The notes below the pieces were generated by a model. It was given only the letters and a program-made list of their open reading frames with translations, was not told the DNA's origin and did not search any database. A stretch of DNA of 21,455 nt from a virus, in IMG/VR virus record IMGVR_UViG_3300042112_000103, positions 1 to 21,455 of that record; one strand, written 5' to 3'. Position numbers and translations under genes: made by a program. Of the stretch, positions 305-21,455 are shown in pieces; the stretch's first letter is position 1; the number at the start of each line of letters is the position of its first letter.

Positions 305-573
305 AACCAGTCCTCCCGCCCGTCCGATCCGGCGAACGCAGATGGCGCAAAGTCCCCGATCACATCCGGGCAATGATACTCAAGGAGCATCCAACAATCT
401 CCTACTCAGAACTCTCTAAGAAATACAACCTCTCAAACTCCGTACTGTGGTACATCCGTAACAACGTCAAATTCCCAAGTAAGTACAAAAAAAATGAATC
501 TTCGAGAATACCAAAAACGAGTCGTCAACTGGGCCAAGACATCGGACGGACTGATCATCGCCCCAGCCGGTAG
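301..573 (+). CDS. Small basic protein with putative helix-turn-helix, 90 aa
   Basis: The start is the ATG at 301, which overlaps the previous stop (ATGA). Upstream extension to 166 would only read the previous gene out of frame. Residues about 20-50 (HPTISYSELSKKYNLSNSVL and on) look like a helix-turn-helix: a helix, a short turn, then a second helix with a YNLS boundary. The C-terminal part is rich in Lys, Arg and Ser. A DNA-binding role, perhaps regulating this block, is inferred. The last 80 bases overlap the beginning of the helicase gene in another frame, so the functional protein may end near residue 65, with the rest being a tail set by the overlap. Confidence in the gene is moderate and in the function low. 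Confidence 0.55.
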   Translation: MKPVLPPVRSGERRWRKVPDHIRAMILKEHPTISYSELSKKYNLSNSVLWYIRNNVKFPSKYKKNESSRIPKTSRQLGQDIGRTDHRPSR

Positions 574-6695: not shown

Positions 6696-7007
6696 TCAGA
6701 TTGGGTTTGAGGTTAGAACCGACAGAACAATCGCAAGACCCCACGCGGCGCATGACCAGAACTTAGCCGTCGTCTTGTCCTTCGCACTCGCGCAATTATG
6801 CCGCGCACGGAAGTTCTTACGACGCTCAGGATTGTCGCGTTTGATCTCCATATTGGGATCGCCGAATCGGACGATGACAACCTTGCCAGCCGGATTCTTG
6901 ACGTACACCGCGCTCTTCTTCCGCTCGCCCGGAGTGTAGAACGGCTTGTTGAGCGTCACCTTACGACCCTTGTAGGTATTACCTTTTTTGGAGAGTGAGG
7001 TTTTCAT
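6696..7007 (-). CDS. Conserved phage protein with FGDPNMEIKRDNPERRKNFR-type motif, 103 aa
   Basis: Residues about 43-86 read GKVVIVRFGDPNMEIKRD, NPERRKNFRARHNC, then KTTAKFWSCAAW. This block, including the paired Cys and the final SCxAW, is one I recognise as recurrent in phage proteins, alone or fused to scaffold or protease-like proteins; its function is not established to my knowledge. The N-terminus is basic, with a beta-like segment (YKGRKVTLNKPFYTPG). After the motif comes a short hydrophobic tail (GLAIVLSVL) that may be a partial membrane helix. The ATG overlaps the stop of the giant gene upstream by one base (TAATG), implying coupled translation. A late-expressed structural or morphogenesis role is inferred. 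Confidence 0.7.
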   Translation of the reverse strand: MKTSLSKKGNTYKGRKVTLNKPFYTPGERKKSAVYVKNPAGKVVIVRFGDPNMEIKRDNPERRKNFRARHNCASAKDKTTAKFWSCAAWGLAIVLSVLTSNPI

Positions 7008-10000
7008 TAGTCGCGGCGACGCATCTGACGCTGTGTTTCACGAAGCACCTGTTCCGATTCCTTACGGTCTTCCTCTCGCATCAAATACCTGTCGGTTTCA
7101 AGCGAAAGCAGCTTTGGCCACCTGCGATTGAAGTTGTCCATTTGAGCTTTTTCGAGCGCATCAATCGGAGTCGAAACAATGCGGAGATACTCTGGACTCC
7201 TCAACGATTTTCCAGCCGATGCGATACCACTAGCCGACAGAATATTAACGAGAGCGGTTCTTCCGTAGAAATTGGCACCAGAAACGGCAGCGACAGCGGA
7301 TGTGACAGCCGGTATGATCTTCCTGCTGAGCATCGAATCCAGCTTCGTAACCTGAGACAGTTGGTCCGCAATCTTGTTCAACTGATCAACTCCGGTCTTT
7401 CCAAAAGCAGAATTGATCAGTGGGTTGTATTTGTCGGCAATGAGGTTCCTCATCTTTTCGATGTCAACCTCACGCTTACCTGGAACCACGGACTCCTTGA
7501 GAATGTTTCCAACGATGAAGTTTTGAACATCGCCAAGAAGCTCCGGTCGGTTGTTCTTGATTACATCGAAAAATTGATCGGTGACATACCGCTGCTTCAG
7601 CTCTCCATGCGGAGAAGTAAGGAACCGAACAATGTCTTCTGGGCTGGCATCGCCATAAAGATTTCCGGTGTCGATTGATTTGCGAACCAACCTTTGAAAA
7701 TCAGTTCCTTGTTTTGCCTGTTCTTGAACGTACAGCTTCAAATCATCGGCAAACCTTCTGGCATCAGGGTTTGACATGATTGCCTTGAGCTGATCGTCAT
7801 CAAGATTGATCGGACGCTTGCTTTTGACCGCCTCTTTGATGGTTGATAATGCGTCAACCACCTGACGAGTTCTGTCGTCCATCTCTTTGAACTCAGGGCC
7901 AAGGTCAGGAGAAGGACGGTTAAGCCGATCGATTTCTTTCTGGTTTGCGGCGAGCTTTGTTTCAACCTCGTTGAGCAAACCGCGAGCAGCCTTATCACCA
8001 GCATCGATCCTCGACTGAAGCTCAGCCATCTTGTCGTCCAACTGGACACGCTGAGATTCGAGAGTCGCTTTACGATCAATCAACGAACGGTATTTTTCCG
8101 CGACGTTTTGAATTTCAGTAAGCTGCGGGAAAAACTCGTTGGCAACTTCCTTTGAAAGTCCAGTTCCTTTCGCGGCTCTCGCCTCAGCAATGAGAGACAA
8201 AAACTGGTCGGGAGTTTGGCCGGTCTTCCTCAACTTGTTGTAAACAAAATCAGAAAGAACAGGTTTGAAGACGCCCTCCCATTCGTTTCCTGCGAGACGC
8301 TTGATCAGCTCAAGCGCGGTTCCACCGCTAGGTCCGATAAGGTTGACAATAGATTCAGGTCCGCCACCTGCCTCTCCGGTTTCTCTCAAGAACCGATTGA
8401 TGTACGCCCCTTTGAACCTAGTAATTCCTTCGCGGTAAGACTGATTCTGGGCTTTCAGAGCGTCTCGAAGAGCAGGGTTTTGATCGAGTCCTTCCTGAAT
8501 CTTTCGCTCGATATCTTCCAGCTCTTGAAACTTCTCAAACTTGGCCTGTTGAACAGGTTTTGTGAAATCAATCTGATCAAGAATTTCTGTGCGTTTTTTG
8601 CGAAGATCCTGAACTGTAAAGCTCTCTACAATTTCGTTTCCCTGTTCATCAACGCGACCAGTTGGAACCTGAACTGTAATTGCCTCAAGCTCAGGAGACA
8701 GCTTTCCATATCCTTCATTTTGAACCTTTTTGAAGTCCTTAAGGAGGCGATTGCCCTGTTCACCAACAAACGTGCCAGCCTCCTTTTGTGATATCGCTCT
8801 TCCCATTCCGAACGATGGGTCGAACCCATCCTCGATGTCTTTGATCTGCCTAGCTTTTTCTGCCATCTCGCTTTCGATTCTAGCCCGCTCCACCTGATCA
8901 GTGGCAGGAAGTGCGTTCCTCTGGTTTGAAAGATCGACAATCTCTTTTTTGAGATACTCAGATTCAAGCTGTAAGTCTCCCTCGGCCCTTCGTGCGGCAG
9001 CAATAAGCTCTGCGTTTCTCTCAGCAAACGCGAGGTCCACCTTGCCTTTGGCAGACTTCATCATGTCCTCTGCGTCATAAACGATTTTGCTGACAAGAGC
9101 AGGGTCAACCGACTTGATGTCTGCAACTCGTTGAAGTTCGCCAACCACTTCTTGAATCAAGGCGTCGCCGGACAATCCTCGACGAGTTCCAGAAGCCAAA
9201 GAATCTTGAAGGAACCGTTGAACATTCGATGTCCAGTTTCTGATGTCCTCCGGCCTTTTTCCCATCTTGTCAGGGGAATACAAAGCATTGGCCAACTCTT
9301 CGGCCATCGCAGGATTGATTCCGCCACCAGGTCCAAGCTCTCTTTGAACTTGCTGCGCCCGTTCTTGCAAAAGCTGCTGGGCGTAGGGCCGATTCAATTC
9401 AGCCCAGAATTCCCTTTGAGTCGGCCAACCGCCACGCGATGCAGCGGCGATTCCTCTGGAAATTCCAGAAAATGTGGGCATCAAAGCACCACCGAAAAGC
9501 ATCTGTTTGAACGAGTCTTGAGCAAAGTCTTTGTCTCCAGCAGATGAAACCATGCCTTGCGCCAATCCGGTTGCACCACCGACAGTGGTTTCTTTCGCAA
9601 TCTGTGCGAGGCGAGAAGACTGCTGGCCAACTCCAGTTTCAGCTTTGAGCAGATTTTTCAAAACGCTTGAACCAGGACGGCTGGTTTCAAAGACGTCTTT
9701 CATCGGAGTTTTAAGCCCAAGCGTTGGAACCGCAGAAGCCACAACTTCTTTGACCTCAAACTCATCTGGAGAAATAAACTGCCGTGCAAGTTCAACGGCA
9801 GCACCTCCGATTATTTCACCACCAAGAGTTTGACCACCAGGAAGTCTTGAAACAGCTATTCCAGCGGGAATTGAAAGGACGTTTGACGCAATTCTGCGAC
9901 CTTGTTTTACACGATAATCTACAAACAGTTTTTGTTCGTCAGGCGTCAGATCAATTGGAACTTCTGGATTGAAATTGGTTTCTTCTAGTTTTTGAAACTT

Positions 10001-10345
10001 TTCTGCGCTTGGTCTACCAAGGTAAAGATCTGCCTGTTGAACAAGAAGGCTTTTGGGCCTGAAAGTTCCAGGTTGGTATTGTTCTTTTGATGGTTGAGCT
10101 ATCGATGCAGATGGCAAAGCGGAAACTAGTCCTGCTTCTTCACGTTGCCGCATCTTCCCAATAGTAGCGGATTCGCTAACAGCTTTTTGAAGTTCGTTTG
10201 TAGATCCAACTGGAACTGGTTGCTGGACAGTGGGTGGTGTTGCAGCCTGAGTTTCATCAACAATTTCAAACGGCTGATCAGGGTCGAATCCAGCAGGTTC
10301 AGCCTGATCAACGATTTCAAACGGCTCGTCAGGATTGAATGGCAT
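7007..10345 (-). CDS. Very large internal virion / DNA ejection protein (T7 gp16-like position)
   Basis: The 1112-residue product begins with two copies of FxPDxPFEIVD. Residues about 150-195 contain a long small-residue hydrophobic stretch (VLSIPAGIAVSRLPGG and on). Two Lys/Glu/Gln-rich coiled-coil regions lie near 435-505 and 750-820. Near residue 1010-1050 there is another Ala/Gly/Ser-rich hydrophobic segment (IIPAVTSAVAAVSG), followed by a very basic end (RETQRQMRRRD). I see no transglycosylase catalytic signature, although one could be missed by eye. In short-tailed phages the largest late protein after two smaller internal proteins forms the ejection channel across the cell envelope; size, position, coiled coils and hydrophobic patches fit that. 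A tape-measure-like protein is the main alternative. Hand-counted lines in this gene range from about 40 to 50% GC, below the neighbouring tail genes. Confidence 0.65.
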   Translation of the reverse strand: MPFNPDEPFEIVDQAEPAGFDPDQPFEIVDETQAATPPTVQQPVPVGSTNELQKAVSESATIGKMRQREEAGLVSALPSASIAQPSKEQYQPGTFRPKSLLVQQADLYLGRPSAEKFQKLEETNFNPEVPIDLTPDEQKLFVDYRVKQGRRIASNVLSIPAGIAVSRLPGGQTLGGEIIGGAAVELARQFISPDEFEVKEVVASAVPTLGLKTPMKDVFETSRPGSSVLKNLLKAETGVGQQSSRLAQIAKETTVGGATGLAQGMVSSAGDKDFAQDSFKQMLFGGALMPTFSGISRGIAAASRGGWPTQREFWAELNRPYAQQLLQERAQQVQRELGPGGGINPAMAEELANALYSPDKMGKRPEDIRNWTSNVQRFLQDSLASGTRRGLSGDALIQEVVGELQRVADIKSVDPALVSKIVYDAEDMMKSAKGKVDLAFAERNAELIAAARRAEGDLQLESEYLKKEIVDLSNQRNALPATDQVERARIESEMAEKARQIKDIEDGFDPSFGMGRAISQKEAGTFVGEQGNRLLKDFKKVQNEGYGKLSPELEAITVQVPTGRVDEQGNEIVESFTVQDLRKKRTEILDQIDFTKPVQQAKFEKFQELEDIERKIQEGLDQNPALRDALKAQNQSYREGITRFKGAYINRFLRETGEAGGGPESIVNLIGPSGGTALELIKRLAGNEWEGVFKPVLSDFVYNKLRKTGQTPDQFLSLIAEARAAKGTGLSKEVANEFFPQLTEIQNVAEKYRSLIDRKATLESQRVQLDDKMAELQSRIDAGDKAARGLLNEVETKLAANQKEIDRLNRPSPDLGPEFKEMDDRTRQVVDALSTIKEAVKSKRPINLDDDQLKAIMSNPDARRFADDLKLYVQEQAKQGTDFQRLVRKSIDTGNLYGDASPEDIVRFLTSPHGELKQRYVTDQFFDVIKNNRPELLGDVQNFIVGNILKESVVPGKREVDIEKMRNLIADKYNPLINSAFGKTGVDQLNKIADQLSQVTKLDSMLSRKIIPAVTSAVAAVSGANFYGRTALVNILSASGIASAGKSLRSPEYLRIVSTPIDALEKAQMDNFNRRWPKLLSLETDRYLMREEDRKESEQVLRETQRQMRRRD
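10256..10339 (-). repeat. Tandem FxPDxPFEIVD repeat at the N-terminus of the large ejection protein
   Basis: Residues 3-13 (FNPDEPFEIVD) and 20-30 (FDPDQPFEIVD) are copies spaced 17 codons, or 51 bases. The DNA copies are also similar (TTTGAAATCGTTGAT against TTTGAAATTGTTGAT on the minus strand). Short acidic FDPxxPFE motifs are common at the N-termini of large phage internal proteins and may be a docking or packaging signal; that role is inference. Confidence 0.8.
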
Positions 10346-10346
10346 A

Positions 10347-11918
10347 TTATTGAGTCACTTCCTTCCAATCGTTGATGGTTTCATCCCAGATATATTCTTT
10401 TCCGCCTTGACGAACTCGCTTGGATTTTGGCGTCAATCCAGCAGGAGCATTTGTCGTCGTAACTCCAGAAGTCAATGTTGGTGCATTGGTCGTTTGGGTG
10501 ACGGATGAAACGGGAGCATTCGTGGGGGCAACTTGTGGTTGTACCGCTGTCCTGCCAACTGGAGTGGTTTGTCCTCGAGTTGTTCCAGCGGGCAAGTTCA
10601 TTCCATAACGAGAGTAAATGTCGTTTACGCGACTTGAAGATTCCTTTGCGCGTGTTTCAAGTTCCCCCTGCTTCAATAAAAGTTTTTCAGCAAAACTCTC
10701 CAAATCTGGCCCGATCAGGTTTCCACCCTGAAAGGCTCGCTTCAGATTGAAAAGATCCAGCTCACCAAGCAGACGTTTTGATTCTTCGACACCAACAGCA
10801 TCTCGTCCTTCCGCGCTGTTTAAAACCTTTGCAATAGCATTTGCGGAATTCAGTTTGACGTAATCTTCAATGCCTGGGTCTTGAAGAATCCCAATCTCGT
10901 ATCCAATGGCATCTGCAATGGTCTGCTTGTTTGCAATGTCGTCAGCGTATTTTTTGACAAGGCGATCATCAACTGCATTGAGCTTAATTTCAGAGGCTTT
11001 TGTCGGCTGAAGAACCTTTTGGCGATAGATATCGATCCGTTCTTTTGCCTGATCGATTCTAGCCTGTCCTTGAGCCAATCGAATGCGTTGAATTTGGTCG
11101 TAAATATCCAGCTTGCGACTCTTTAATTGTTGCTCTTCAGCAGCAGTTTTTTCTTTAATATCAAGTTCCCGGCCTTTGAGTTTTCTTTCCTCTTCACCAG
11201 ACAGCCTCTTTACATCAAGCTCTTCACGGTCAAGTTGAAGCCTTGCGTCATTAAAAGACTTTTGAACTTCTAGCCGCGCTCGATCAATTTCCGATTTTGA
11301 AGCTCCTTCTGAAATGAGTCTTTGAAGGTTGTTTTTTGCAACTTCAAGATTTCCAAGCAAGCTAGACGTTTGAGCTTGGGTCTTGGCTTGCTCTGACTTC
11401 TTAAAGTCGAATGCTCGCTGATTCAACAAGTCAACATTGATACCAAGAGATCCATCTGGATTCTTTGTGATGGCTCCAAATCTGATGGCTTCGTTGAGTG
11501 TTGATGCTGCAATTTTGTCCGCTTCAGCTTCTGCCCTAGATTGCGCTTTCAGCAAAGCGGCCCTAGCGGAATATTTCTCAAGATTGTTAAGCATCCGATC
11601 AGCTTCAGTGCGGAACTGACGGGATTTGAAAGCGGGAACAACAGGAAACTTTGCGTCAGGTTTGGGGTTAGTCAGATAATCTGAAACATCTTTACCAAGC
11701 TGGCTAAACGCTTTGAATTCGTTTGCTTGAGCTTCCGACTCTTCCAAAGCATCAGACAACGCTTTGGATTGAATTTGGTTCTGAAGATCATACTGCCGCT
11801 GCCGCATGACCTGATCAGCCGCCTGAAGCTGGAACTGTTCCATGAGACGCTGCTGAGTCTGAGCGCGGTCGAACAGACTCGCGCCTAGCTGAAACGCTTG
11901 AAGAGATTGGTCGGCCAT
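10347..11918 (-). CDS. Coiled-coil internal virion protein (T7 gp15-like position)
   Basis: The 523-residue product is almost entirely helical, Gln/Glu/Lys/Ala-rich, with long heptad-like stretches (for example residues about 195-300, with EELDVKRLSGEEERKLKGRE). The final 110 residues are low complexity, with three TNAP units (encoded near 10440-10535) between Thr/Val/Pro-rich spacers. It ends in a compact module, KEYIWDETINDWKEV. No enzymatic motif is visible. Placed between the short Gly/Ala-rich protein and the 1112-residue protein, it fits the middle internal/ejection protein of podoviruses; other coiled-coil tail components are possible. One base separates its stop from the start of the 1112-residue gene, and three bases separate its start from the gene upstream. 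Confidence 0.6.
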   Translation of the reverse strand: MADQSLQAFQLGASLFDRAQTQQRLMEQFQLQAADQVMRQRQYDLQNQIQSKALSDALEESEAQANEFKAFSQLGKDVSDYLTNPKPDAKFPVVPAFKSRQFRTEADRMLNNLEKYSARAALLKAQSRAEAEADKIAASTLNEAIRFGAITKNPDGSLGINVDLLNQRAFDFKKSEQAKTQAQTSSLLGNLEVAKNNLQRLISEGASKSEIDRARLEVQKSFNDARLQLDREELDVKRLSGEEERKLKGRELDIKEKTAAEEQQLKSRKLDIYDQIQRIRLAQGQARIDQAKERIDIYRQKVLQPTKASEIKLNAVDDRLVKKYADDIANKQTIADAIGYEIGILQDPGIEDYVKLNSANAIAKVLNSAEGRDAVGVEESKRLLGELDLFNLKRAFQGGNLIGPDLESFAEKLLLKQGELETRAKESSSRVNDIYSRYGMNLPAGTTRGQTTPVGRTAVQPQVAPTNAPVSSVTQTTNAPTLTSGVTTTNAPAGLTPKSKRVRQGGKEYIWDETINDWKEVTQ

Positions 11919-11921
11919 AAA

Positions 11922-12800
11922 TCAGCGGATTCCTGGGTAGTAAGAAGACGGAGGAACAGCGTAAACGCTAGCCGGTGACATCGGATTCGGATAAGCGGTT
12001 TCTCCGGTGCTGTAATCGACAGTCGTGCTGCTGACGCTCGGCATACCTCCGGGTGTAGTACCGTAAGCCGCAGGACTGTTGGCCAGCATGGCGTTGTACA
12101 AACCGTACTGCATCAGCGCACCGCCAGCGATGTTTCCGACATTTGTAAATGCACTCTGCGCCGCCTGCTGCATCGGCGACGGAGCAGCGGCAACTTGAGC
12201 GGCAGTCACATCGCGACCGTACTGACGAGCTTGCTGCTCTTGAATCGCGCCTATCCGCTGAGCAGGGGTGATGAACATACTGCTCACCGAGAACGGTTGA
12301 ACCATTCCAAAAGTCCGTTGCTGCTGGATGAAGTTCTGAGCTTGAGCAAGACCTTGATTCTGCAACTGCATCGAGGTCAGACCAAGATCGCGAGCAGTCA
12401 AAGCTCGTCCAGCACCAGTACCAGCATAACCACCCATCAAAGCTCGACCGGCAGCGGACCGTTGAACCTGAGCAGAAACCTCTGGCGAAATCTCACCGGC
12501 CAAGGCGGCACCGATGTTCTTGCTGGCTTGCTGAACCAACTGATCGTAACCGGGGATCGCCCTGCGAAGCTGCGCCTCAAGCTGAGTCTGTTCAGCCTGA
12601 GTGGTTCGCTGAGCAAGTTGAGTAGCAGGTTCAAGTGCCTCGATGTTTTGGCGAATCGCCTGTTGCTGTTCGCGAGCAAAATCAATCGGCTTCAACTCGG
12701 GAATCTTCGGCTTCTTTCCGCCGAACAAACCACCGAGCAGACTTCCACCAGCCGAAATGGCTGCGCTTCCCAAAAGTGCTGCACCTAATCCGATTGGCAT
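11922..12800 (-). CDS. Small internal virion protein (T7 gp14-like)
   Basis: The 292-residue product begins with a Gly/Ala-rich hydrophobic segment (GLGAALLGSAAISAGGSLLG, residues 4-23), followed by GGLFGGKKPK. The middle is Gln/Ala-rich and helical, with a glycine-rich turn (GRALMGGYAGTGAGRAL). The C-terminus is Pro/Ser/Tyr-rich (PPSSYYPGIR). T7 gp14-type proteins, which leave the capsid first and form a pore in the outer membrane, share this hydrophobic glycine-rich start, size and genomic place. An AAAGGA site lies five bases before the ATG, so the start is well supported. It follows the gp11-like gene with a short gap. Confidence 0.65.
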   Translation of the reverse strand: MPIGLGAALLGSAAISAGGSLLGGLFGGKKPKIPELKPIDFAREQQQAIRQNIEALEPATQLAQRTTQAEQTQLEAQLRRAIPGYDQLVQQASKNIGAALAGEISPEVSAQVQRSAAGRALMGGYAGTGAGRALTARDLGLTSMQLQNQGLAQAQNFIQQQRTFGMVQPFSVSSMFITPAQRIGAIQEQQARQYGRDVTAAQVAAAPSPMQQAAQSAFTNVGNIAGGALMQYGLYNAMLANSPAAYGTTPGGMPSVSSTTVDYSTGETAYPNPMSPASVYAVPPSSYYPGIR

Positions 12801-12805
12801 AAATA

Positions 12806-12811
12806 TCCTTT
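12806..12811 (-). promoter_or_regulatory. Ribosome binding site for the gp14-like gene
   Basis: AAAGGA on the minus strand lies five bases before the ATG at 12800 and overlaps the stop of the preceding gene. It confirms the start at 12800. Confidence 0.75.
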
Positions 12812-13784
12812 AGAACCACTGATACAATCCACCGCCACTCTGGCCCGCTCCGACCATACGGATCGTAGCGACCGCATCACCGAGGTATTGCATCGTTTGC
12901 TCTTGGACCGCTTGCACGGCCTTAGCTTCATACGCAACAGCCTCGTTTAGAAGATCATTCTCTTCCTTACGAATCGCCTGAACCATCAATTTGATGGCAT
13001 CCGCACAAGGAGGGATCAGGTAATCGTTCGGAGTCGATGCATTGATGTGACGCATCTTGGCCATCACCGTCACAGGCTTGTTCTCGTCCGCATTGCAACG
13101 ATTGCCCAAGAAGCTCCGACGATATTGCGGCAACGTCTCATCGGGATCGTAAACAGCGATATCTGTTTCAGCGAGAGTCGTTGCGTCGTACTCGTACAAA
13201 CGGCTGACCGTGTTGGTCGTCTGACGAATGACTCCGGTCAGAGAAGTGAACTTCTTGGTCGATTGAACGTATGGGAGGGCCAGAGTCAGCTTCTCGCCAT
13301 CGATCCAAACTCCACCGCTCTGAGTGCGAATCCACTGACCGTTTTGATCGACACCCTGCAATGTGATCGTCTTGCCGACATCGCTCGCGTCACCAGGGTA
13401 AACGCGGATGTAGCTGTTGGTTCCTCCGCTCATGTCGCGGTAGGAAACGACCGTTCCGCGATCAAGAAGTTGGTTCCCAAGACAGACTTGTCCGCCGCCA
13501 TTGACGAGTCCGAATCCGGTCTCCTGAAACTCGAACCATTGATTGCGAACAGTACCGACAGCGCAACAGTCGGCCACTGCTTCAATGGTCTCGATCTGAC
13601 GGGGCCAAGTGATGCACCCACTGGTGGGATGGATGGTGAATCGACCGTAAGCACCGGCCCACAGTCCCTTGTGAAGCAGACGCCGACAGGCTTGGTTGAT
13701 GTACTCGTAGACGCGGGGATCATCGGAGCAGACCCCGATAACCCGAGCGATCAACGACTGGATGTCAGCAACGATCAGCTTCAT
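12810..13784 (-). CDS. Tail tubular / head-tail adaptor-like protein (T7 gp11-like, putative)
   Basis: The 324-residue product starts with a helical segment (YINQACRRLLHKGLWAGAYG), followed by RFTIHPTSGCITWPRQIETI. A beta-rich middle follows (YIRVYPGDASDVGKTITLQG), and the C-terminus is helical (ADAIKLMVQAIRKEENDLLN). The early helix with an aromatic and glycine turn, then a GCITWPR-type strand, recurs in podovirus adaptor proteins that join portal and nozzle. Its place between the nozzle/collar genes and the internal proteins agrees. A different tail or baseplate part cannot be excluded. Its ATG overlaps the previous stop as ATGA (13781-13784), so it is translationally coupled to the collar-type protein. 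Confidence 0.6.
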   Translation of the reverse strand: MKLIVADIQSLIARVIGVCSDDPRVYEYINQACRRLLHKGLWAGAYGRFTIHPTSGCITWPRQIETIEAVADCCAVGTVRNQWFEFQETGFGLVNGGGQVCLGNQLLDRGTVVSYRDMSGGTNSYIRVYPGDASDVGKTITLQGVDQNGQWIRTQSGGVWIDGEKLTLALPYVQSTKKFTSLTGVIRQTTNTVSRLYEYDATTLAETDIAVYDPDETLPQYRRSFLGNRCNADENKPVTVMAKMRHINASTPNDYLIPPCADAIKLMVQAIRKEENDLLNEAVAYEAKAVQAVQEQTMQYLGDAVATIRMVGAGQSGGGLYQWF

Positions 13785-14494
13785 TTGGTGTAATAGACTC
13801 GGGCCGTCCGCTTGATGAAGTAAACGCCGTAGAACGGAGGCAGATTGTTGTGGGCGGAACCACCTCCAGAATCGCCGGTGTTCTTTTTGATATCATCAAA
13901 GGCGTTTGCGTCCGGTCCAGAATACAGCGTCTTCAACTGATTTCCTCCAGCGGTGTCTTGAGAATCCCAAGTCATCAGATGGCTGTGAGGAGGGATTTCA
14001 GATGTACTTAGAGTGTGCTGATCTTCGCCAGCAATCGCTGTAGAGGTAGTCGTTCCCTGCACCGCAACAGCACCGCTTGCGGCAAAAGTCCCAACTCCAA
14101 CAGGGAACCGCGCTGCAAAGTTAGAGTCCACCTCCCACATTGGCCCGCTGTAACTTGAAGCGGGATTGGTGTTTCCGCCGTCATAAGTTTGCAGGTCGGT
14201 GGTTGTTCCGATGAAAATGCGGCGTTCATTGCTGTTGATTTCAACCGGATGCTTTCGCGCCCAGAATCCGCCTTGATAAACCCACCAGTTACCATCGGCA
14301 TCGAGCCACGGATAAATCTGGTTATTCAACGATGGAACAGTCGCTCCAAAGTTGAAGAACGAGTTTCCAATCGAAGAAAGGAATGTCGCCTGAGTTCCAG
14401 AGATAACATCGTTGGCAAACTGTTGATAGTTCGCCGGACAATAGTTCAGCGGGAAATTCGGCGGCGTAAGCTGAATGAGAGTTAGGTTTGGCAT
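13781..14494 (-). CDS. Tail protein with C-terminal collar-type domain
   Basis: The 237-residue product has a divergent N-terminus with Asn- and Trp-rich strands (WLDADGNWWVYQGGFWARK). Its C-terminal half resembles the phage tail collar fold: FPVGVGTFA, then EDQHTLSTSEIPPHSHLMTW with a His-x-His pair, a Gly-rich linker, and SAHNNLPPFYGVYFIKRT. His residues in HTLSTSEIPPHSH and SAHNNLPP often bind metal in this fold. It probably sits on a fibre or tail tip and contacts the host surface. Gaps to its neighbours are minimal: one base after the nozzle-like gene and an ATGA overlap into the adaptor-like gene. Confidence 0.75.
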   Translation of the reverse strand: MPNLTLIQLTPPNFPLNYCPANYQQFANDVISGTQATFLSSIGNSFFNFGATVPSLNNQIYPWLDADGNWWVYQGGFWARKHPVEINSNERRIFIGTTTDLQTYDGGNTNPASSYSGPMWEVDSNFAARFPVGVGTFAASGAVAVQGTTTSTAIAGEDQHTLSTSEIPPHSHLMTWDSQDTAGGNQLKTLYSGPDANAFDDIKKNTGDSGGGSAHNNLPPFYGVYFIKRTARVYYTK

Positions 14495-14495
14495 A

Positions 14496-16352
14496 CTATT
14501 CCGATGAGTAGAAGAACATATTCAGGTCACACGATTCCAAGATGGAGCAAGGAACACTGATGGATCTGCAATCTCCAACCACCTGCTCCTGAACATCGTA
14601 AGCGTGTACTCGCACACTCTTGATGCGGCAATAGCCAGTAACCAAAAGCTGCATCTGAACCTCGAAAAGATTCCGTGTCGGAGTGCTGATGGTTGAATTG
14701 CACACAGTATCAGACGGTGTAGGCAAGCGCATCTTCGGTCTGTACTGCGGCTGATAATTGGTGATCGGCAAACAAGACGACGGGAACCCGCAAAGGTTAA
14801 CTCGCGCGCACTCGGCCCAGTCGGCCCACTCGATCCAACCGGGGTATTGGTCCGGCTTGTACTTCGCCTCAAACGAGACGTCGCCCTCAAGCTGATCGAT
14901 GAAGATGTCTCCGCTATCAAGACGCTTTAAACCGAACGGAATCTCGAAGTTGTATGCGCGAGTCTGGAACAACCACTGGATCTCTTTCGACTCGGACAAA
15001 TTGACATCGAACTTGCCGGACTTTGTGACTTCCCAGAGTTGAATGTTTCCGTTCTCGCCACGGGCAAAGATCCAGCACTGATCACCGTAAATATTCTCGG
15101 TTTTGACGATCTGAAGGATCTTCAGTCCTGTCCAAATCCCGGCCCAGGAGGGAGGCATCTTCTTCCGCATCGAGGTGATGAGATCAAAATCGAGAACACC
15201 AAGAGCGCGATGATAAACACCATCGTTGTCATAGACAGGCTGCGTGGTCATCAGCAGACGGTTGTCGAACACGACTGCGGAACCGGACCACAAGAGATTG
15301 GTTTGATCGTTCTCGACGATGTTGACGATCTCACCGCTGATGGGTGTATTGCCCCAATCGGTGAACGAGCGTCGAGCGATGATGAACGAGCGGATGCCAT
15401 CGACAGCGCGGTAGAAGACGTCGCCATTGACGGTAATGGCTGAACGCGCTCCCAGCGCACCGGAGGTGAGAAGGCTGATCGCTTGGATCGGGTAGGTCAG
15501 GTTCTTCCAAGTGTCCCGATTGACCGGAGCCTGTACGGAGAAGACGTATCGAGGAGTGAAGACTAGGAGCGGACCTTGGCCGAGCGAAGTGTCAGGGTCG
15601 CCGGGGACAGCCATCGCCGTGATGCCGCCTGAGTCCGACGGAACCGCGAAGTCTCCACCTTCATTGAGGAAGGTGTTCTCGGTTTCTTTGAGAACACTGG
15701 CCCGCGTTCCATCTCCATAAACGATGTCTGTGGCTCGGAAAGAGAATCCGTCAGGGAGCGCATACCAGATGCGTCCGTTGACGTAGGCCATGACTCTGCC
15801 GCACTTGATCTCGTTGTCTTCAGCCCTGCGAAGATTGGCTCCGTTGAAGATAAGAGGCTTGGAGAAACCGTCTTGGATGACGACGAAGTTCTCGGCCTGA
15901 ACCATCCATCCATCGAGCAGATTGGACGGGTTCTTGAGGTCGGGTGTCGTGCTGAGATTGATGAAGGTGTTTAGCTGGGTGTCATACAGCCAAACCTCAC
16001 CGCTGATGAGGGCCAGAATGTAGGTGCGTCCGTTGTCTGCGATGTATGGAAGAGCGCATTGGAAGACGCCGCCGATTTCATCTGGTCCGTAGCATTCCTC
16101 CGACCATCCGTCAGCGGTGACGTTCGTGGCATCGGCGGTGACGATGGCATTATCTGCCGTGATGGTCAGACAGATGTCGTAGTCTTTTTGAACGTACCCT
16201 GGGCGGGGCGAGACGAATCCTTCGCGGAAAGATGAATTGATGGCAAAAGCGACCTGATTCTTGTCGATCTCGGACGGCATAACGCCCGTATCGATGCCGC
16301 CCTCAAAGGTGACGGTTCCATCGGTGTAGCGTCTTGGTGCGCGTTCGCTCAT
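14496..16352 (-). CDS. Tail nozzle protein (T7 gp12-like beta-propeller, putative)
   Basis: The 618-residue, beta-rich product begins with VTFEGGIDTGVMPSEIDKNQ and SSFREGFVSPRPGY, a start typical of podovirus tail tubular protein B. There are repeated strand pairs of blade type, such as GRTYILALISGEVWLYDTQL, NFVVIQDGFSKPLIFNG, GRIWYALPDGFSF and DVFYRAVDGIRSFIIARRS. Cysteines cluster in the last third. Such proteins form the distal hexameric nozzle of the tail tube and bind fibres. No signal peptide or membrane segment is present. It begins three bases after the fibre gene and ends one base before the collar-type gene, so it belongs to the same transcript. Confidence 0.7.
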   Translation of the reverse strand: MSERAPRRYTDGTVTFEGGIDTGVMPSEIDKNQVAFAINSSFREGFVSPRPGYVQKDYDICLTITADNAIVTADATNVTADGWSEECYGPDEIGGVFQCALPYIADNGRTYILALISGEVWLYDTQLNTFINLSTTPDLKNPSNLLDGWMVQAENFVVIQDGFSKPLIFNGANLRRAEDNEIKCGRVMAYVNGRIWYALPDGFSFRATDIVYGDGTRASVLKETENTFLNEGGDFAVPSDSGGITAMAVPGDPDTSLGQGPLLVFTPRYVFSVQAPVNRDTWKNLTYPIQAISLLTSGALGARSAITVNGDVFYRAVDGIRSFIIARRSFTDWGNTPISGEIVNIVENDQTNLLWSGSAVVFDNRLLMTTQPVYDNDGVYHRALGVLDFDLITSMRKKMPPSWAGIWTGLKILQIVKTENIYGDQCWIFARGENGNIQLWEVTKSGKFDVNLSESKEIQWLFQTRAYNFEIPFGLKRLDSGDIFIDQLEGDVSFEAKYKPDQYPGWIEWADWAECARVNLCGFPSSCLPITNYQPQYRPKMRLPTPSDTVCNSTISTPTRNLFEVQMQLLVTGYCRIKSVRVHAYDVQEQVVGDCRSISVPCSILESCDLNMFFYSSE

Positions 16353-16355
16353 GGA

Positions 16356-17552
16356 TTAGAGAGAATCAATTCGCTCAATCGTCAGCGACGAATACTGCAC
16401 CACGTTCACGTTATGGACGTCTTGAATGTACATCCACAGTTCAAAATATTCGGAATTAGCTGTTGTGACCTTTTCAACATGATTGATCACAAGAGGAGCC
16501 GCTTGTTCAGTCGCGGCAGAACTAGGCAAATCGAGAAGCTGGGTCTGGCTGACAGTTACACCGCCCTTTTTGATGATGATCTGGGCATTCGATGTATTTC
16601 CATCCCCTTGAGCATAAATACAAGCAGTAATCCTAAAGTATCCTGTGTTTAGTGCTGTATATCGACCTAAGGCTTGATTCCATTGAGTGTTTGTGGACGG
16701 CTGACTAATTGGTGTTCCAACAAAAACTTGACGAGTTCCGCTATTTAGTAAACTAGCTACCGATCCAGTAATGTAAGCAAACTCTCTAGTGAGAGGCTGT
16801 GTTGCGGTTGTAGAGATTGTTATATTTCCTGCTGTATTAGTAACTACAATCGGAGCCGTTCCGACAATCTCCTTCTGGAGGTAGTTGGTTCCGTCACCAA
16901 CTAGAATCTTGTTGGCAGGAGCGGTCGTCAGGTTCGTCCCACCCTTGGCAATCGGAAGCGTTCCAGTGATATCCGCAACGGGGATTGTGGCCGTCGTCGA
17001 GATGACGCCAGCACCACCAGAACCGGCGGTCTTCATGTAACCTGCGGTAAGCAGATCAAGAGCGGTCTCGTTGGTCAGCGTTCCATCTCCGCTGCGGCAG
17101 ATGTAGGAAGCTCCGACCGGCGCACCGCCAGAAACTCCGGGTGCGCCCTGCGCCCCGACTGCACCAGCGAGAGTGATAAGCGATCCAGAAGGGATCGGAG
17201 TCGTTGGAATCGCGTTCGGAATACCGAGAACACCGGGATCAGGATTTTTGAGTGCGATAGTCAGACCAACGACATCCAAAACCTGCATATACCCGCATCC
17301 CTGAACGGACACAAAAAACTGGCCCTGAATGCTTTCGGGAAGAAACGAAGAACTGTCTACGGTTACATAGACAAAAGCACCTTGAGCAGGAACGAGAAAA
17401 AGCGCGGTGGTGTAGCAGAAAGCGTTCTCGCCATTGGTGCCGTTGGTTCCATTGGTTCCAGCCGGTCCTTGAGGGCCGGGGACGTTCACGACAACTGGAT
17501 CAGAGTCGCAAGGCTGGCAGCAGCCGGTTGAAGAAACGAGTTGCGACGGCAT
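16356..17552 (-). CDS. Tail fibre with collagen-like stem and C1q-like head
   Basis: The start at 17552 (398 residues) is preferred over the upstream ATG at 17588 because an AAAGGA site lies five bases ahead of it. The N-terminus has GCCQPCDSDPVVV, then six Gly-X-Y triplets (GPQGPAGTNGTNGTNGEN, residues 26-43). A second short collagen-like run, GAVGAQGAPGVSG, occurs mid-protein, then a linker DITGTLPIAKGGTNLTT, common before fibre tips. The final 130 residues (GRYTALNTGYFRITACIYAQ, then IIIKKGGVTVSQTQL and EYFELWMYIQ) look like a C1q/TNF jelly-roll head. The protein is probably trimeric and binds the host receptor. Its C-terminal DNA is AT-rich and the N-terminal DNA GC-rich, with the change near 16870-16900, suggesting tip exchange. 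It is the first gene of the minus-strand block. Confidence 0.78.
   Translation of the reverse strand: MPSQLVSSTGCCQPCDSDPVVVNVPGPQGPAGTNGTNGTNGENAFCYTTALFLVPAQGAFVYVTVDSSSFLPESIQGQFFVSVQGCGYMQVLDVVGLTIALKNPDPGVLGIPNAIPTTPIPSGSLITLAGAVGAQGAPGVSGGAPVGASYICRSGDGTLTNETALDLLTAGYMKTAGSGGAGVISTTATIPVADITGTLPIAKGGTNLTTAPANKILVGDGTNYLQKEIVGTAPIVVTNTAGNITISTTATQPLTREFAYITGSVASLLNSGTRQVFVGTPISQPSTNTQWNQALGRYTALNTGYFRITACIYAQGDGNTSNAQIIIKKGGVTVSQTQLLDLPSSAATEQAAPLVINHVEKVTTANSEYFELWMYIQDVHNVNVVQYSSLTIERIDSL
17424..17477 (-). repeat. Collagen-like Gly-X-Y triplets
   Basis: Six consecutive triplets GPQ, GPA, GTN, GTN, GTN, GEN, with three GTN copies in a row. Such runs form a trimeric triple helix in phage fibres and often vary in copy number by slippage. 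Confidence 0.85.
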
Positions 17553-17606
17553 ATTTTTCCTTTGCCAGAACCTCAAGTCCAGAGTCAATTATTGCAAGGG
17601 TAATCT
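17553..17606. promoter_or_regulatory. Divergent intergenic region between tail block and terminase
   Basis: This 54-base gap is the only place in the window where two blocks diverge, so promoters for the minus-strand tail genes and the plus-strand terminase may lie here or just inside the flanking genes. I see the two ribosome sites (AAAGGA for the fibre; AAGGG at 17596-17600 for the terminase) but no convincing -35/-10 pair in either direction. Phage-specific promoters, or transcription from outside the window, are possible. Confidence 0.4.
17558..17563 (-). promoter_or_regulatory. Ribosome binding site of the fibre gene
   Basis: AAAGGA on the minus strand, five bases before the ATG at 17552, decides the start over the in-frame ATG at 17588. 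Confidence 0.8.
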
Positions 17607-19280
17607 ATGTCTTCAGAGGTGTCCGAGAATCCAATGATCCAACACAAGTACGGCATCAAATCGCCGGTCAAAATACCTGATTTGGAGTTGGAACTTTACT
17701 GTTTTCGCAATCGGCTTCAGCCAAGTGAGGGTGGACTCGGCACTTTCGATCATTTTCGTAACGCCACGAAAATGTTATGGCCGAAGATGAGCTGGAACCC
17801 GTGGCTGGAGAAGCAGATCGAAAGTCTTTGCGACCACGATTACGTTGGATGGGCCGGTTGCGGTGCTTCCGGTAAGACTTTTGGAGCGACTCTTTTCGCG
17901 ACCGTCTGGTGGTTGGCCAATCCATCCAAGACAGCAGTCGTCCTTACGTCCACGACGGCGAAGATGATCCGAAAGCGTATGTGGGCCAATCTTCAGGATC
18001 TGACCCGTACGACTCGTGGATTCCCAGGTAACATGGTGGACTCGAAGATGAGTCTCCAAGCGGTCAAAGGAGATGATCGCCATTCGATCTCAGCGGTAGC
18101 GGTGGCCGAGGGTAACACATCGAAGGCGGTGGCCAACATTCAGGGTATCCACGCTGACCGTGTGATGGTCATCATTGACGAGGCGACGGATACGCCAGAA
18201 GCGGCGTTTGAGGCGTGTACGAACCTCTCGAAAGGTTGTCGCGAGTTCAAGATGCTGGTGATCGGAAACCCTGCATCAAAGTTCGATCCACACGGGAGAT
18301 TCTGCACCCCTGCAAAGGGTTGGCGAAGTGTGACGATTGAAGACCAGCATTGGCTGACTGAACGCGGGATGTGCTGTCGATTCGACGGCATGAAGAGTCC
18401 GAACATCAGTGAAGGTCGGACGAAGTATTCATACCTTATAACGCATGATCAGGTCTTATCCGCTATGCGACATGAGGGTGAGCAAAGCCCCACATTTTGG
18501 AAGTACACACGCGGATTTTGGGCTCCTGACGGAATGGTCAAAACCGTCTTGTCCGAAGCATTGGTCGAGACTCATTCGCCTCATAAAAAGCTGATTTTCA
18601 CCTCAAATGCTCAGGAAGTTGCTGCTCTTGACCCCGGTTTCGGTGGCGACCGATGTATCCTGCGGTTCGCCAAGGTCGGGACTGCCAACGACAAGGCGAG
18701 CATCTTGTTTGGCGACGTCATCCAAATATCGCCGAACGCGGCATTGCCCGATCCCGTCCATTACCAGATCGCCAATCGGGTCAAGGAGGAGTGCGTCAAG
18801 AGAGGAATTCAACCGGACAGATTCGCTCTTGATTCAAGCGGTGAAGGCGGTGGTTTGGCCGACATTTTGACCCGTGAATGGGGCATCGTTCATCGCGTCG
18901 AATTTGGCGGTTCACCATCGACGATTCCTGTCAGCGACGAGGACAGTAGGCCATGCAATGAGGCTTATGACCGGAAGGTGACTGAGCTTTGGTTCTCGAT
19001 GCGGAAATGGGTCGTCGAAGAGCGGATCGGTGGTCTTGATCTTGAGACGATGCAGGAGTTCTGCTCGCGGATGTTTGATGACGGCAAGCGTAAGATAGCG
19101 GTCGAATCAAAGACCGTGATGAAGCAGAGGACAGGGCGATCACCTGACTTGGCTGATGCGGCTGTCGTTTTGCTCGATCTGGTGAGGAAAACTGTTCAGT
19201 TCGAGCCGAGGAGAACCAAGGTCGATAAGATATGGGAAAAGCTCGTCGCTGAATCTGACATGATTTACCACGACATCTAG
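17607..19280 (+). CDS. terL: Terminase large subunit (packaging ATPase-nuclease)
   Basis: The 557-residue product has the two-domain terminase layout. ATPase: Walker A GCGASGKT (84-91, Lys90), VVLTSTTAKMIRKRMW as the strand after it, Walker B VMVIIDEATDT (186-196, Asp191-Glu192), and a coupling-type motif near MLVIGNPAS (216-224). Nuclease (RNase H fold): AALDPGFGGDRC (Asp342), RFALDSSGEGGG (Asp409) and RSPDLADAAVVLLDL (Asp514, Asp517). It pumps DNA into the procapsid and cuts concatemers. The start ATG is preceded by AAGGG six bases upstream. No small terminase subunit is visible in the window. The cysteine-rich gene begins two bases after its stop, followed by the portal. Confidence 0.93.
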   Translation: MSSEVSENPMIQHKYGIKSPVKIPDLELELYCFRNRLQPSEGGLGTFDHFRNATKMLWPKMSWNPWLEKQIESLCDHDYVGWAGCGASGKTFGATLFATVWWLANPSKTAVVLTSTTAKMIRKRMWANLQDLTRTTRGFPGNMVDSKMSLQAVKGDDRHSISAVAVAEGNTSKAVANIQGIHADRVMVIIDEATDTPEAAFEACTNLSKGCREFKMLVIGNPASKFDPHGRFCTPAKGWRSVTIEDQHWLTERGMCCRFDGMKSPNISEGRTKYSYLITHDQVLSAMRHEGEQSPTFWKYTRGFWAPDGMVKTVLSEALVETHSPHKKLIFTSNAQEVAALDPGFGGDRCILRFAKVGTANDKASILFGDVIQISPNAALPDPVHYQIANRVKEECVKRGIQPDRFALDSSGEGGGLADILTREWGIVHRVEFGGSPSTIPVSDEDSRPCNEAYDRKVTELWFSMRKWVVEERIGGLDLETMQEFCSRMFDDGKRKIAVESKTVMKQRTGRSPDLADAAVVLLDLVRKTVQFEPRRTKVDKIWEKLVAESDMIYHDI

Positions 19281-19282
19281 TT

Positions 19283-19900
19283 ATGGGTTACAAGCTACTG
19301 AATACTCACATTGTTCCACCGGGAAACTGGATTTATCGGGTTCCAGAGACCGGCATCGAGATTATTGCAAGTTCATGGCAGCAACTGGTCACCTTTGTTC
19401 AGGACCACTACAAGTCGAATGCCATAAAGATTCCTGACAATTTGGAAGAATTATTGGTGGAATTTTCATGCAAAAGGGGTGTCGAGTGCAGCTATAACGA
19501 TGTCGAGATCCCTCAAGTCAAAGGCACCAGATCGTTCCAGATCGGTGATGTCGTGAGGTTCAGCATGAGCTTGGCCCACGGTCTTACGATCGGTGGTGGT
19601 AAGGTTGCACCGCACGAAGCTACAAAAAGGGCAGCTATCTGTGCGTCCTGCATCTACAACCGGCAACCGCATGGGTGCAGTTCGTGCAATAACCGTGTCA
19701 TAAAAGAGACTGTAAAGGTGTTATCAGCTCATGGGTCCACGCCTTACGACGACGCGCTGAAAAGCTGCGAATTTTGCGGTTGTTTTATCAGAAGCATGGT
19801 TTGGTTTCCCATTGAAACCCTCCATAAATTCACAGACTCTGCGGAGAACAAGAACCTTCCGGCCCATTGCTGGAAAAAAAGACCATGTACGGATCAATAG
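19283..19900 (+). CDS. Cysteine-rich putative zinc-binding phage protein
   Basis: The 205-residue product sits between terminase and portal. Its first half (VPPGNWIYRVPETGIEI, then SSWQQLVTFVQDHYKSN) is an unidentified mixed alpha/beta domain. The second half holds CASC (120-123) and CSSC (132-135), a complete four-Cys zinc-ribbon spacing, and CEFCGC (162-167) with H195-C196 and C202 as a possible second site. It starts two bases after the terminase stop without a clear ribosome site, so reinitiation is likely. It overlaps the portal start by 16 bases. Position suggests a packaging or head-assembly role, but the family is unknown to me. A small terminase is not supported, since no HTH is visible. 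Confidence 0.7.
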   Translation: MGYKLLNTHIVPPGNWIYRVPETGIEIIASSWQQLVTFVQDHYKSNAIKIPDNLEELLVEFSCKRGVECSYNDVEIPQVKGTRSFQIGDVVRFSMSLAHGLTIGGGKVAPHEATKRAAICASCIYNRQPHGCSSCNNRVIKETVKVLSAHGSTPYDDALKSCEFCGCFIRSMVWFPIETLHKFTDSAENKNLPAHCWKKRPCTDQ

Positions 19901-21455
19901 CTCAACTGCCTCTTCAGACGCTCAACGAGAACGGGACGGCACCCGATACGCGCATTGAGGATGCAGCGTCAGCTCGTGAAATCTTCCAGAAGCTCATCAT
20001 GGCCGACGAGCTTCGGAACAATACGCGAGCCAAGCTGCGTGGTCTTGTTGACGGTAATCCGCCTTACAACCCTGCCGAACTGAGGCGGAACAACCAGGCT
20101 TATCGGACCAACGTGAACTTCCGCGAATCGGAAGCGTTCCTGACGTTGGCCATGTCTGCCTTCTACGATGTATTCGCCGAGGTTCCGACCTACGCGACGA
20201 TCAAGACCGCTTACGGCAACGACATCGACAAGCGTGAGGAGTGGTCGAAGATCATCACCGAGGAGTTCGACCGTCTTCAGAAGCTCGACAAGGATTTCGA
20301 CTATATCATGCAGCTTTCGCAGCGTGAGATGGTCTTGATCGGTCATGGTCCGCTGATCTTCGAGGATTCCAACAACTGGCGATGCAAGGCGATCCTCGCC
20401 ACGGATCTCCTGGTTCCTGACGGCACGAAGTCCAACGTGAGCGACTGGAAGGTGGCTGTCGTTCGCGTCCGCATGGGCGTCGATGATCTGTTCGAGAAGA
20501 TTCAGGACGAAGAAGCTGCCCGTGCTGCCGGTTGGAATGTCGATTATGTCCGCCAGCGTATCCGTGCTGCGATGCCTGAGCCGTATCGCTCCGGTGTGCA
20601 GTACGATTGGGAGTTCTTCCAGCGTCAGCTTCGCTCGAACGACATCACGTTCTCGGCTCGTTCCGAGGTGGTGATGATGGCCCATGTCTTCTACAAGGAG
20701 TTCGATGGGAAGATCAGCCATTGCATCATCGATGAGCGTGACAGCGAGGACTTCATGTATCGGAAGCTGCGCCGGTTCTCCAAGTGGGAGCAGGTGATTC
20801 ATCCGATGTATTACGACCGTGGTGATGGCGAGCATCACGGCGTGAAGGGCTTGGGCATCAAGATGCTTCAGGCGATGGAGCTGAAGAATCGTCTTCGCTG
20901 CTCGATGGTGGATAGCGCGTTTGCTCGGACGCAGATCCTTTTCAAGCCTCTCAACCCGAATGCTCTGAGCAAGACGAGTGTCGTGCAGCAGGGGCCGTAC
21001 GCGATTGTTCCGCCCGATTATGATGTCATTCAGCAAAATGTTGCGGGCGTTCTGGACGCGCCTATGGCGGTCAACGCCGACCTTGAAAACGTCCTCCAAG
21101 GCAACCTCTCGCAGTACCGGCAATCCCTCAACAAGCCTCAAGGAAATCCGCGCACCGCGACCGAAATCCAAGCAATCGTCTCGCAGCAAAGCGCGATTGG
21201 TAAGACTCAACTGAGTCGGTATTACAATCAGCTTGATGCTTTCTTCGAGGAGCGTTTCCGTCGTGCTTCCAATCCGAATCTGAATCCGATCACGAAGAGT
21301 GATCGCGATGCCATCGAGTTCCAGCGTCGTTGTCGTGAGCGCGGCGTTCCTGATCAAGCCATGCTTGATTTGGATTACGTCGAGGCGACTCGGACGGTGG
21401 GCCAAGGATCTCAGTTCGCTAAGCAGCAGCTTCTCGGATCGCTTCTCGGTCTGCT
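19885..21455 (+). CDS. Portal (head-tail connector) protein, 3' end outside the window
   Basis: The frame is open from the ATG at 19885 to the end of the window (523 full codons). It starts MYGSIAQLPLQTLNENG. Features expected of podovirus head-tail connectors include an N-terminal helical region (REIFQKLIMADELRNNTRAK), the wing-like segment FRESEAFLTLAMSAFYDVFA, WEQVIHPMYYDRGDGEHHG then VKGLGIKMLQAMELKNRL, a strand QGPYAIVPPDYDVIQQN, and the NPRTATEIQAI motif near residue 430, which is characteristic of these portals. Portals form dodecameric rings at one capsid vertex, dock the terminase and later hold the tail. The start overlaps the cysteine-rich gene by 16 bases. A long antisense frame over it is an artefact of codon bias. 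Confidence 0.88.
   Translation, partial: MYGSIAQLPLQTLNENGTAPDTRIEDAASAREIFQKLIMADELRNNTRAKLRGLVDGNPPYNPAELRRNNQAYRTNVNFRESEAFLTLAMSAFYDVFAEVPTYATIKTAYGNDIDKREEWSKIITEEFDRLQKLDKDFDYIMQLSQREMVLIGHGPLIFEDSNNWRCKAILATDLLVPDGTKSNVSDWKVAVVRVRMGVDDLFEKIQDEEAARAAGWNVDYVRQRIRAAMPEPYRSGVQYDWEFFQRQLRSNDITFSARSEVVMMAHVFYKEFDGKISHCIIDERDSEDFMYRKLRRFSKWEQVIHPMYYDRGDGEHHGVKGLGIKMLQAMELKNRLRCSMVDSAFARTQILFKPLNPNALSKTSVVQQGPYAIVPPDYDVIQQNVAGVLDAPMAVNADLENVLQGNLSQYRQSLNKPQGNPRTATEIQAIVSQQSAIGKTQLSRYYNQLDAFFEERFRRASNPNLNPITKSDRDAIEFQRRCRERGVPDQAMLDLDYVEATRTVGQGSQFAKQQLLGSLLGL

Follow-up and report, generated by a model that had tools for sequence, protein, structure and literature searches.

A low-GC, predicted C1q/TNF-like fibre head replaced between close relatives of an uncultured tailed phage

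Exchangeable C1q-like tips have already been described in phages. In uncultured marine phages, putative receptor-binding proteins with C1q domains were reported as the variable, under-recruiting part of variable islands (PMC3909814), and in a Mu-like phage from cryoconite, C1q receptor-binding variants with 54–69% nucleotide identity occur on core genomes that are 96–99.7% identical (PMC7468147). Other reports concern the shuffling of domains among the receptor-binding proteins of phages (PMC10684548), recombination of Litunavirus tail fibres (PMC9786124) and C1q domains in the fibres of contractile injection systems (PMC12923769). The fibre presented below is a sharply resolved further example. 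The marine proteins resemble it in that their C1q-like domain is far more variable than the N-terminal part and was read as a host recognition module. However, that evidence was read recruitment, whereas here nearly identical genomes were compared to locate the edges of a replacement, and both the phage group and the protein, which has a collagen-like N-terminus, are different. Likewise, the cryoconite phage carries distinct C1q-gene variants on near-identical core genomes, but its variation is described over a 1.7 kb gene, whereas the junctions found here lie within the gene and are placed to about 20 bases. The shuffled receptor-binding proteins and the Litunavirus fibres share the conserved N-terminus and the exchanged C-terminal receptor-binding domain; they concern other domains and other phages, and the accessible sections of both papers describe no composition step. 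An arrangement in which a C1q/TNF jelly-roll head comes after a collagen-like stretch is also known from Bacillus BclA and the mammalian C1q family. These proteins are cellular, their sequence similarity to the fibre is weak (profile E values of 0.0018 for BclA and 0.11 for C1q-related factor), and unlike theirs, the collagen-like stretch of the present fibre is very short.

The stretch of DNA analyzed here (termed the window) comprises positions 1 to 21,455 of the IMG/VR virus record IMGVR_UViG_3300042112_000103. The neighbourhood of its fibre gene (Table 1) includes a terminase gene (17607-19280, plus strand, phrog_2) and a Gp10_C baseplate domain in 13781-14494, and the fibre protein is probably part of the virion. 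A homologous fibre ORF was present in 77 of 80 terminase loci. The fibre had no significant Pfam or PHROGs match; the Pfam Collagen model gave an E value of 0.19, below the cut-off, in a single-sequence scan. Conservation within the gene peaked at residues 11-20, with a mean pairwise nucleotide identity of 0.96, and the stretch of residues 13-54 presumably serves as an anchor. Inside 13781-14494, at approximately 13855-14010, nucleotide homology breaks off in many relatives, which perhaps points to a second variable tail gene.

Table 1 Features of the fibre gene in the window (residue numbers follow the 410-residue reading)
Feature	Position	Strand	Basis and remarks
Fibre gene	16356..17552	-	ORF and translation; 398 aa from the likely start ATG 17552; alternative start TTG 17588 gives 410 aa
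Anchor-like N-terminal stretch with short collagen-like GPQGPAGTNGTNGTNGEN repeat (residues 13-54)	17427..17552	-	Translation
Shaft (residues 55-208), containing a second region exchanged between relatives	16965..17426	-	Blocks in close pairs
GTLPIAKGGTNLTT linker (residues 209-222), joint in other relatives	16923..16964	-	Starts of tip blocks, local conservation
Base segment of type B1 (residues 223-249); B2 in other relatives	16842..16922	-	Alignments, base-tip combinations
Low-GC exchanged tip block (residues about 250-410, stop and 3 bases before the next ATG)	16353..16839	-	Three-block fit
Predicted C1q/TNF-like jelly-roll head (residues 262-410)	16359..16805	-	Predicted model and structure matches
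3′ joint, covering the final ten fibre codons, their stop (16356-16358) and the beginning of the following gene (ATG 16350-16352)	16323..16388	-	Ends of tip blocks, nucleotide conservation

A preliminary description of the window had reported a sharp composition break in this gene, and a change-point fit together with codon shuffles confirmed it. The GC fractions of 0.383 (16441-16500), 0.400 (16741-16800) and 0.400 (16801-16860) agreed with the roughly 40% reported for these intervals; of the two intervals put at about 60%, 16981-17040 indeed had 0.600, whereas 17101-17160 reached 0.700. The mean of the whole window is 0.516. Within the ORF 16356-17588, the best single change point was 16850, with GC of 0.558 and 0.426 on either side (0.57 and 0.43 if counted from the ATG at 17552), and none of 1000 codon shuffles matched its score. 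Among 13 ORFs tested, the fibre ORF exhibited the strongest internal GC step (LLR 11.3), followed by 10347-11918 (LLR 5.1, a score reached by 4 of 300 shuffles) and 494-2611 (LLR 4.5). Comparison of adjacent 300-base intervals gave a maximal GC contrast at 16914 (0.207), the next value in the window being 0.130. Because the fibre gene is on the minus strand, the low-GC part corresponds to the C-terminus of the protein. Expected values were computed from the codon usage of seven other genes of the window. For residues 250-410, the observed GC was 0.433 (expected 0.519 ± 0.013, z = –6.8) and the observed GC3 was 0.366 (expected 0.621 ± 0.037, z = –6.9), while residues 13-222 matched expectation (z = –0.7 for GC and –1.3 for GC3). 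With the GC3 of the tip so far below the codon-usage expectation, the step must be largely synonymous and cannot reflect amino-acid make-up alone. GC3 was lowest at residues 241-325, approximately, and partly recovered beyond. All 8405 bases of a second locus, L002, were identical to 13051-21455 of the window, so that the step is present in two records, although these may come from one sample. Two further genes of the window were GC-poor, namely 7007-10345 (GC3 0.447) and 10347-11918 (GC3 0.399). These large genes (7007-11918, minus strand; 1112 and 523 aa) lie beside genes with GC3 of 0.52-0.67, and the PHROGs matches of the 1112-aa protein were weak (best E value 0.028).

A terminase search of viral contigs confirmed 210 stretches, the best 80 of which were kept as loci. 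In a blastn search with 12001-19300 of the window, homology ended near 16358; many loci regained it at 16819, others at 16912-17161. The breakpoint analysis among relatives that the preliminary description had proposed yielded a sharp-edged replaced block in the comparison with L003 and L004, which are identical in this test and about 95% identical to the window on both sides of the block. A three-block fit placed it at 16353-16839, with a divergence of 0.550 inside and 0.046 outside (LLR 389) and edge support at 16351-16360 and 16824-16841. The low edge falls between the ATG of the next gene and the fibre stop, indicating that the block extends to the end of the gene. For L008, the same fit returned a block at 16359-16818 (LLR 123). 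For L009, it chose a different, less diverged block (17440-19180); as this pair differs by about 30% outside the block, it is unsuited to the three-block test. Hence the relatives did not diverge uniformly over the gene, but combined nearly identical flanks with a replaced segment and a tip that varied almost independently of the backbone. The exchange site of this putative host-recognition part was placed to about 20 bases, at 16824-16841 and not at 16870-16900, where the breakpoint had been expected. The GC change point at 16850 sits 11 bases from the DNA junction, just beyond its support interval, and illustrates that a composition step noticed by eye in a single raw sequence can coincide with a real recombination joint. 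The GTLPIAKGGTNLTT linker, formerly suggested as the boundary, is the joint in other pairs, whereas in the window about 28 codons separate the linker end from the junction that follows it. The linker is thus only one among several joints.

Pairs of loci were regarded as close if the downstream gene was at least 93% identical in nucleotides over its first 480 bases (103 of 1770); these pairs are related by descent and do not represent independent events. An internal divergent block was detected in the fibre region of 41 of the 103 close pairs (26 in the tip, 1 in the base only and 14 in the shaft), while the same test returned none in the terminase (0 of 103) and none in the downstream gene (0 of the 98 pairs that covered enough of it). 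The 26 tip blocks began at residues 214-219 (six), 255 (one), 261 (five) and 273-276 (14), and every one of them ended close to the fibre stop, at –49 to +2 bases. Over residues 401-410, mean pairwise nucleotide identity was 0.83, and over the 30 bases past the stop it was 0.91, a value exceeded only at residues 11-20 (0.96). A local conservation peak coincided with the GGTN linker (0.79 at residues 211-220) compared with 0.73 and 0.66 alongside. Conserved flanks of this kind would fit homologous recombination, and we infer that this is how the exchange takes place: crossovers in the linker and base upstream, and in the last codons and the start of the next gene downstream, would swap the DNA of the head and retain the anchor, the shaft and the remaining genome. 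In the 14 close pairs with shaft blocks, the 5′ edge was at residues 28-153 and the block ended 571-832 bases before the fibre stop. This second exchanged region spans about 17380-17480 to 17050-17190 and is exemplified by the pair L005 and L007.

Three of the 80 terminase loci gave no fibre ORF (L030, L031 and L034). With L002 set aside for its identity to the window and L078 because it was cut, 76 fibres including that of the window remained, 60 of which were distinct; the tail gene was too short in one of these, leaving 59 records for identity correlations and trees. The first 222 residues were mostly alignable, although the first 40 differed wherever additional genes lie next to the fibre. 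Beyond residue 222, the base segment (about residues 223-258) occurred in two alternative forms and the tip in three types. Among the 60 distinct fibres, the combinations were B1-TA (29), B2-TA (24), B1-TC (3), B1-TB (2, namely the window and L022) and B2-TB (1, L009); L007 carried B1 with a tip that could not be classed by motif. Two bases and two tips thus occur in all four combinations and therefore require recombination. Median pairwise identity was 0.95 for the terminase, 0.86 for the tail gene, 0.78 for the shaft, 0.70 for the base and 0.49 (amino acids) for the tip, and tip identity hardly followed backbone identity (Spearman coefficients of 0.14 with the terminase, 0.15 with the tail gene and 0.03 with the shaft; 59 records). 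The trees conflicted accordingly. The tail-gene tree united the window with L003, L005, L007 and L008 (support 100), a clade rejected by the tip (p-AU 8.7e-67), while the tip tree united the window with L009 and L022 (support 98.8), a clade rejected by the tail gene (p-AU 1.8e-37) and the terminase (8.2e-50). The terminase tree neither recovered nor rejected the backbone clade (p-AU 0.21). Clades for these tests were chosen after inspection of the data, and a quick tree method without mixture model was used. In L124, a related tip (70% amino-acid identity) sits on a tail gene that is just 78% identical.

In several loci, fibre and terminase are separated by additional genes totalling about 3 kb: L022 (2849-6000), L005-L007, L023, L028, L032, L046, L048, L072, L076 and L077. 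The extra ORFs of L022 encode 663, 116 and 140 aa. The 140-aa protein adjoins the terminase, and its MPSQ start and cysteines resemble the N-terminus of the window fibre. As the start of the L022 fibre differs, a protein of its own may have taken over the anchor there.

The head was modelled as a monomer. The prediction for the window head (m5cf43568f4d8; 38 aligned sequences) had a mean pLDDT of 79.9, that for the alternative head of L003 (32 aligned sequences) a pLDDT of 84.3. Over model residues of about 54-202, the window head matched C1q/TNF chains with Z scores of 12.7-15.7 among the 50 matches listed, and the L003 head matched C1q/TNF heads with Z scores of 13.1-15.8. Two phage proteins were among the matches listed for the window head, the central spike of phi812 (Z 14.3) and the receptor-binding domain of TM4 gp23 (Z 12.7); many proteins in the viral library bear the name 'C1q domain containing'. 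Both alternative heads are thus predicted to form C1q/TNF-like jelly rolls. Because neither the Pfam C1q model nor PHROGs matched the single fibre sequence, we refer to a resemblance in fold and not to membership in Pfam C1q. A conserved N-terminal part and a tip replaced between close relatives are as expected for a phage receptor-binding fibre with an exchangeable tip, and the modelled head most likely contacts the host surface. Its position, predicted fold and variability point to a role in receptor binding, in which case tip swaps would probably change the host range.

We therefore favour, with a probability of roughly 85%, the interpretation that the low-GC stretch encodes a replaceable C1q/TNF-like C-terminal head of a collagen-type fibre in an uncultured tailed phage. 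This interpretation draws on features observed at the sequence level, namely the replaced block with its edges, the tree conflict and the four base-tip combinations, and on the predicted fold; the sequence-level features also support the earlier notion that the break lies at a boundary for the swapping of tips. If no exchange had occurred and diversifying selection simply drove the head to accumulate point mutations and small indels at a much higher rate, the tip would be the least conserved part, as its median identity of 0.49 indeed makes it. Such an origin is nevertheless quite improbable, given the sharp block edges in pairs that are about 95% identical outside, the mutual rejection of clades by tip and backbone trees, the occurrence of each of two bases with each of two tips, and the tip of L003, whose identity reaches 0.86-0.90 with tips from backbones that have a tail identity of only 0.77-0.79. 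Diversity-generating retroelements and invertase cassettes are known to act on variable C-terminal fibre domains, and the variable domain is C-terminal in this fibre, too. However, the reverse transcriptase family PF00078 was found in none of 36 records (possibly fragments; the control search detected it in 3 of 14 genomes), and a whole domain is replaced instead of scattered positions, which makes a mechanism of this type very improbable. The same low probability applies to an assembly chimaera with the tip joined to the wrong backbone. Every relative compared is a metagenome contig, but L002, possibly from the same sample, exactly repeats the window across the junction, L003 and L004 give equal edges, the frame is open throughout, and the joints recur in other records.

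The composition step itself could be attributed to a recent import of the window tip from an AT-rich donor, in line with the strong synonymous shift (GC3 z = –6.9) and the short distance of 11 bases between change point and junction. However, shaft GC exceeded tip GC in all 60 distinct fibres, with a mean difference of 0.089, including that of L003, which has a different tip (shaft 0.56, tip 0.44). Relative to their own terminase, 58 of 60 tips and 23 of 60 shafts had GC3 z scores below –2, and the window tip ranked 15th lowest of the 60. Moreover, no close donor was found among the best 80 of at least 257 loci, where the nearest other tip outside L002 was 70-73% identical. As all 60 distinct fibres show the step, recent import is not supported as its cause and is unlikely; the step represents a standing property of the tips in this group and does not signal a fresh import. 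Present in every fibre compared, it neither dates the exchange nor names its source. The AT shift perhaps stems from a partly separate gene pool of tips, or from weaker codon selection. Against a fully separate pool, tip GC3 was moderately correlated with terminase GC3 (rho 0.41, compared with 0.78 between terminase and shaft), and the 23 shafts mentioned are GC3-low as well. A more far-reaching version of the head-replacement interpretation, which we put forward tentatively and consider doubtful, is that shaft, base and head are separately exchangeable cassettes with a few fixed DNA joints, and that heads, with synonymous codons richer in AT, would make up a separate gene pool that moves among backbones. 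If so, a GC step would mark a detachable tip even where relatives are lacking.

A scan of viral contigs with a tip/joint profile, the patterns of which lay within joint and base, yielded at least 257 loci, and the best 80 were analyzed. In 29 of these 80, the base/joint stretch occurred alone, with no match to the shaft, the tail gene or the terminase. The upstream joint thus appears portable, and heads might be traded with unrelated phages. Since the patterns lie in the joint and the loci extend at most 4 kb to each side, this count documents the joint in other contexts and not the frequency with which heads cross between groups. The joint GTLPIAKGGTN...VGDGT was seen by itself, apart from the shaft of this fibre, in part of the loci L098-L123 and L168-L203. 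A further scan with the tip profile returned 26 bacterial loci, nearly all of which matched just the joint end of the query. The terminase was 87-100% identical in the best 80 of 210 loci, but remained below 60% identity in all 18 matching records among 50,697 phage records; the phage thus belongs to a widespread group without close cultured member in this 50,697-record collection. A tblastn search of phage records with the fibre gave no match at E ≤ 1e-3, and no terminase relative was found in genome_contigs, where 74 stretches matched the pattern and none was confirmed.

Elsewhere in the window, the helicase ORF 494-2611 (plus strand) carries an intein (Pfam Intein_splicing, E value 1.7e-9). 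Inside the intein, a 261-aa endonuclease ORF (1020-1805, plus strand) is encoded in another frame and exhibits a DUF559 domain (E value 4.4e-12). Among 35 records searched, 21 contained the helicase, and the intein with the nested ORF was present in two of them (the window and the record of L005), while the remaining 19 lack the intein and have both helicase parts directly adjoining. Changes between these two records in the overlap were distributed 34/25/90 over the codon positions of the nested frame, indicating that the nested frame is the constrained one. The intein frame contained no stop in either record compared with 14.7 expected, and none of 5000 synonymous null codings was open. The nearest report found, on the ShiLan element (PMC11855218), describes an HNH endonuclease that is encoded out of frame but is not accompanied by intein splicing domains, and an intein that holds an out-of-frame endonuclease gene may be more novel than the exchange of fibre tips.
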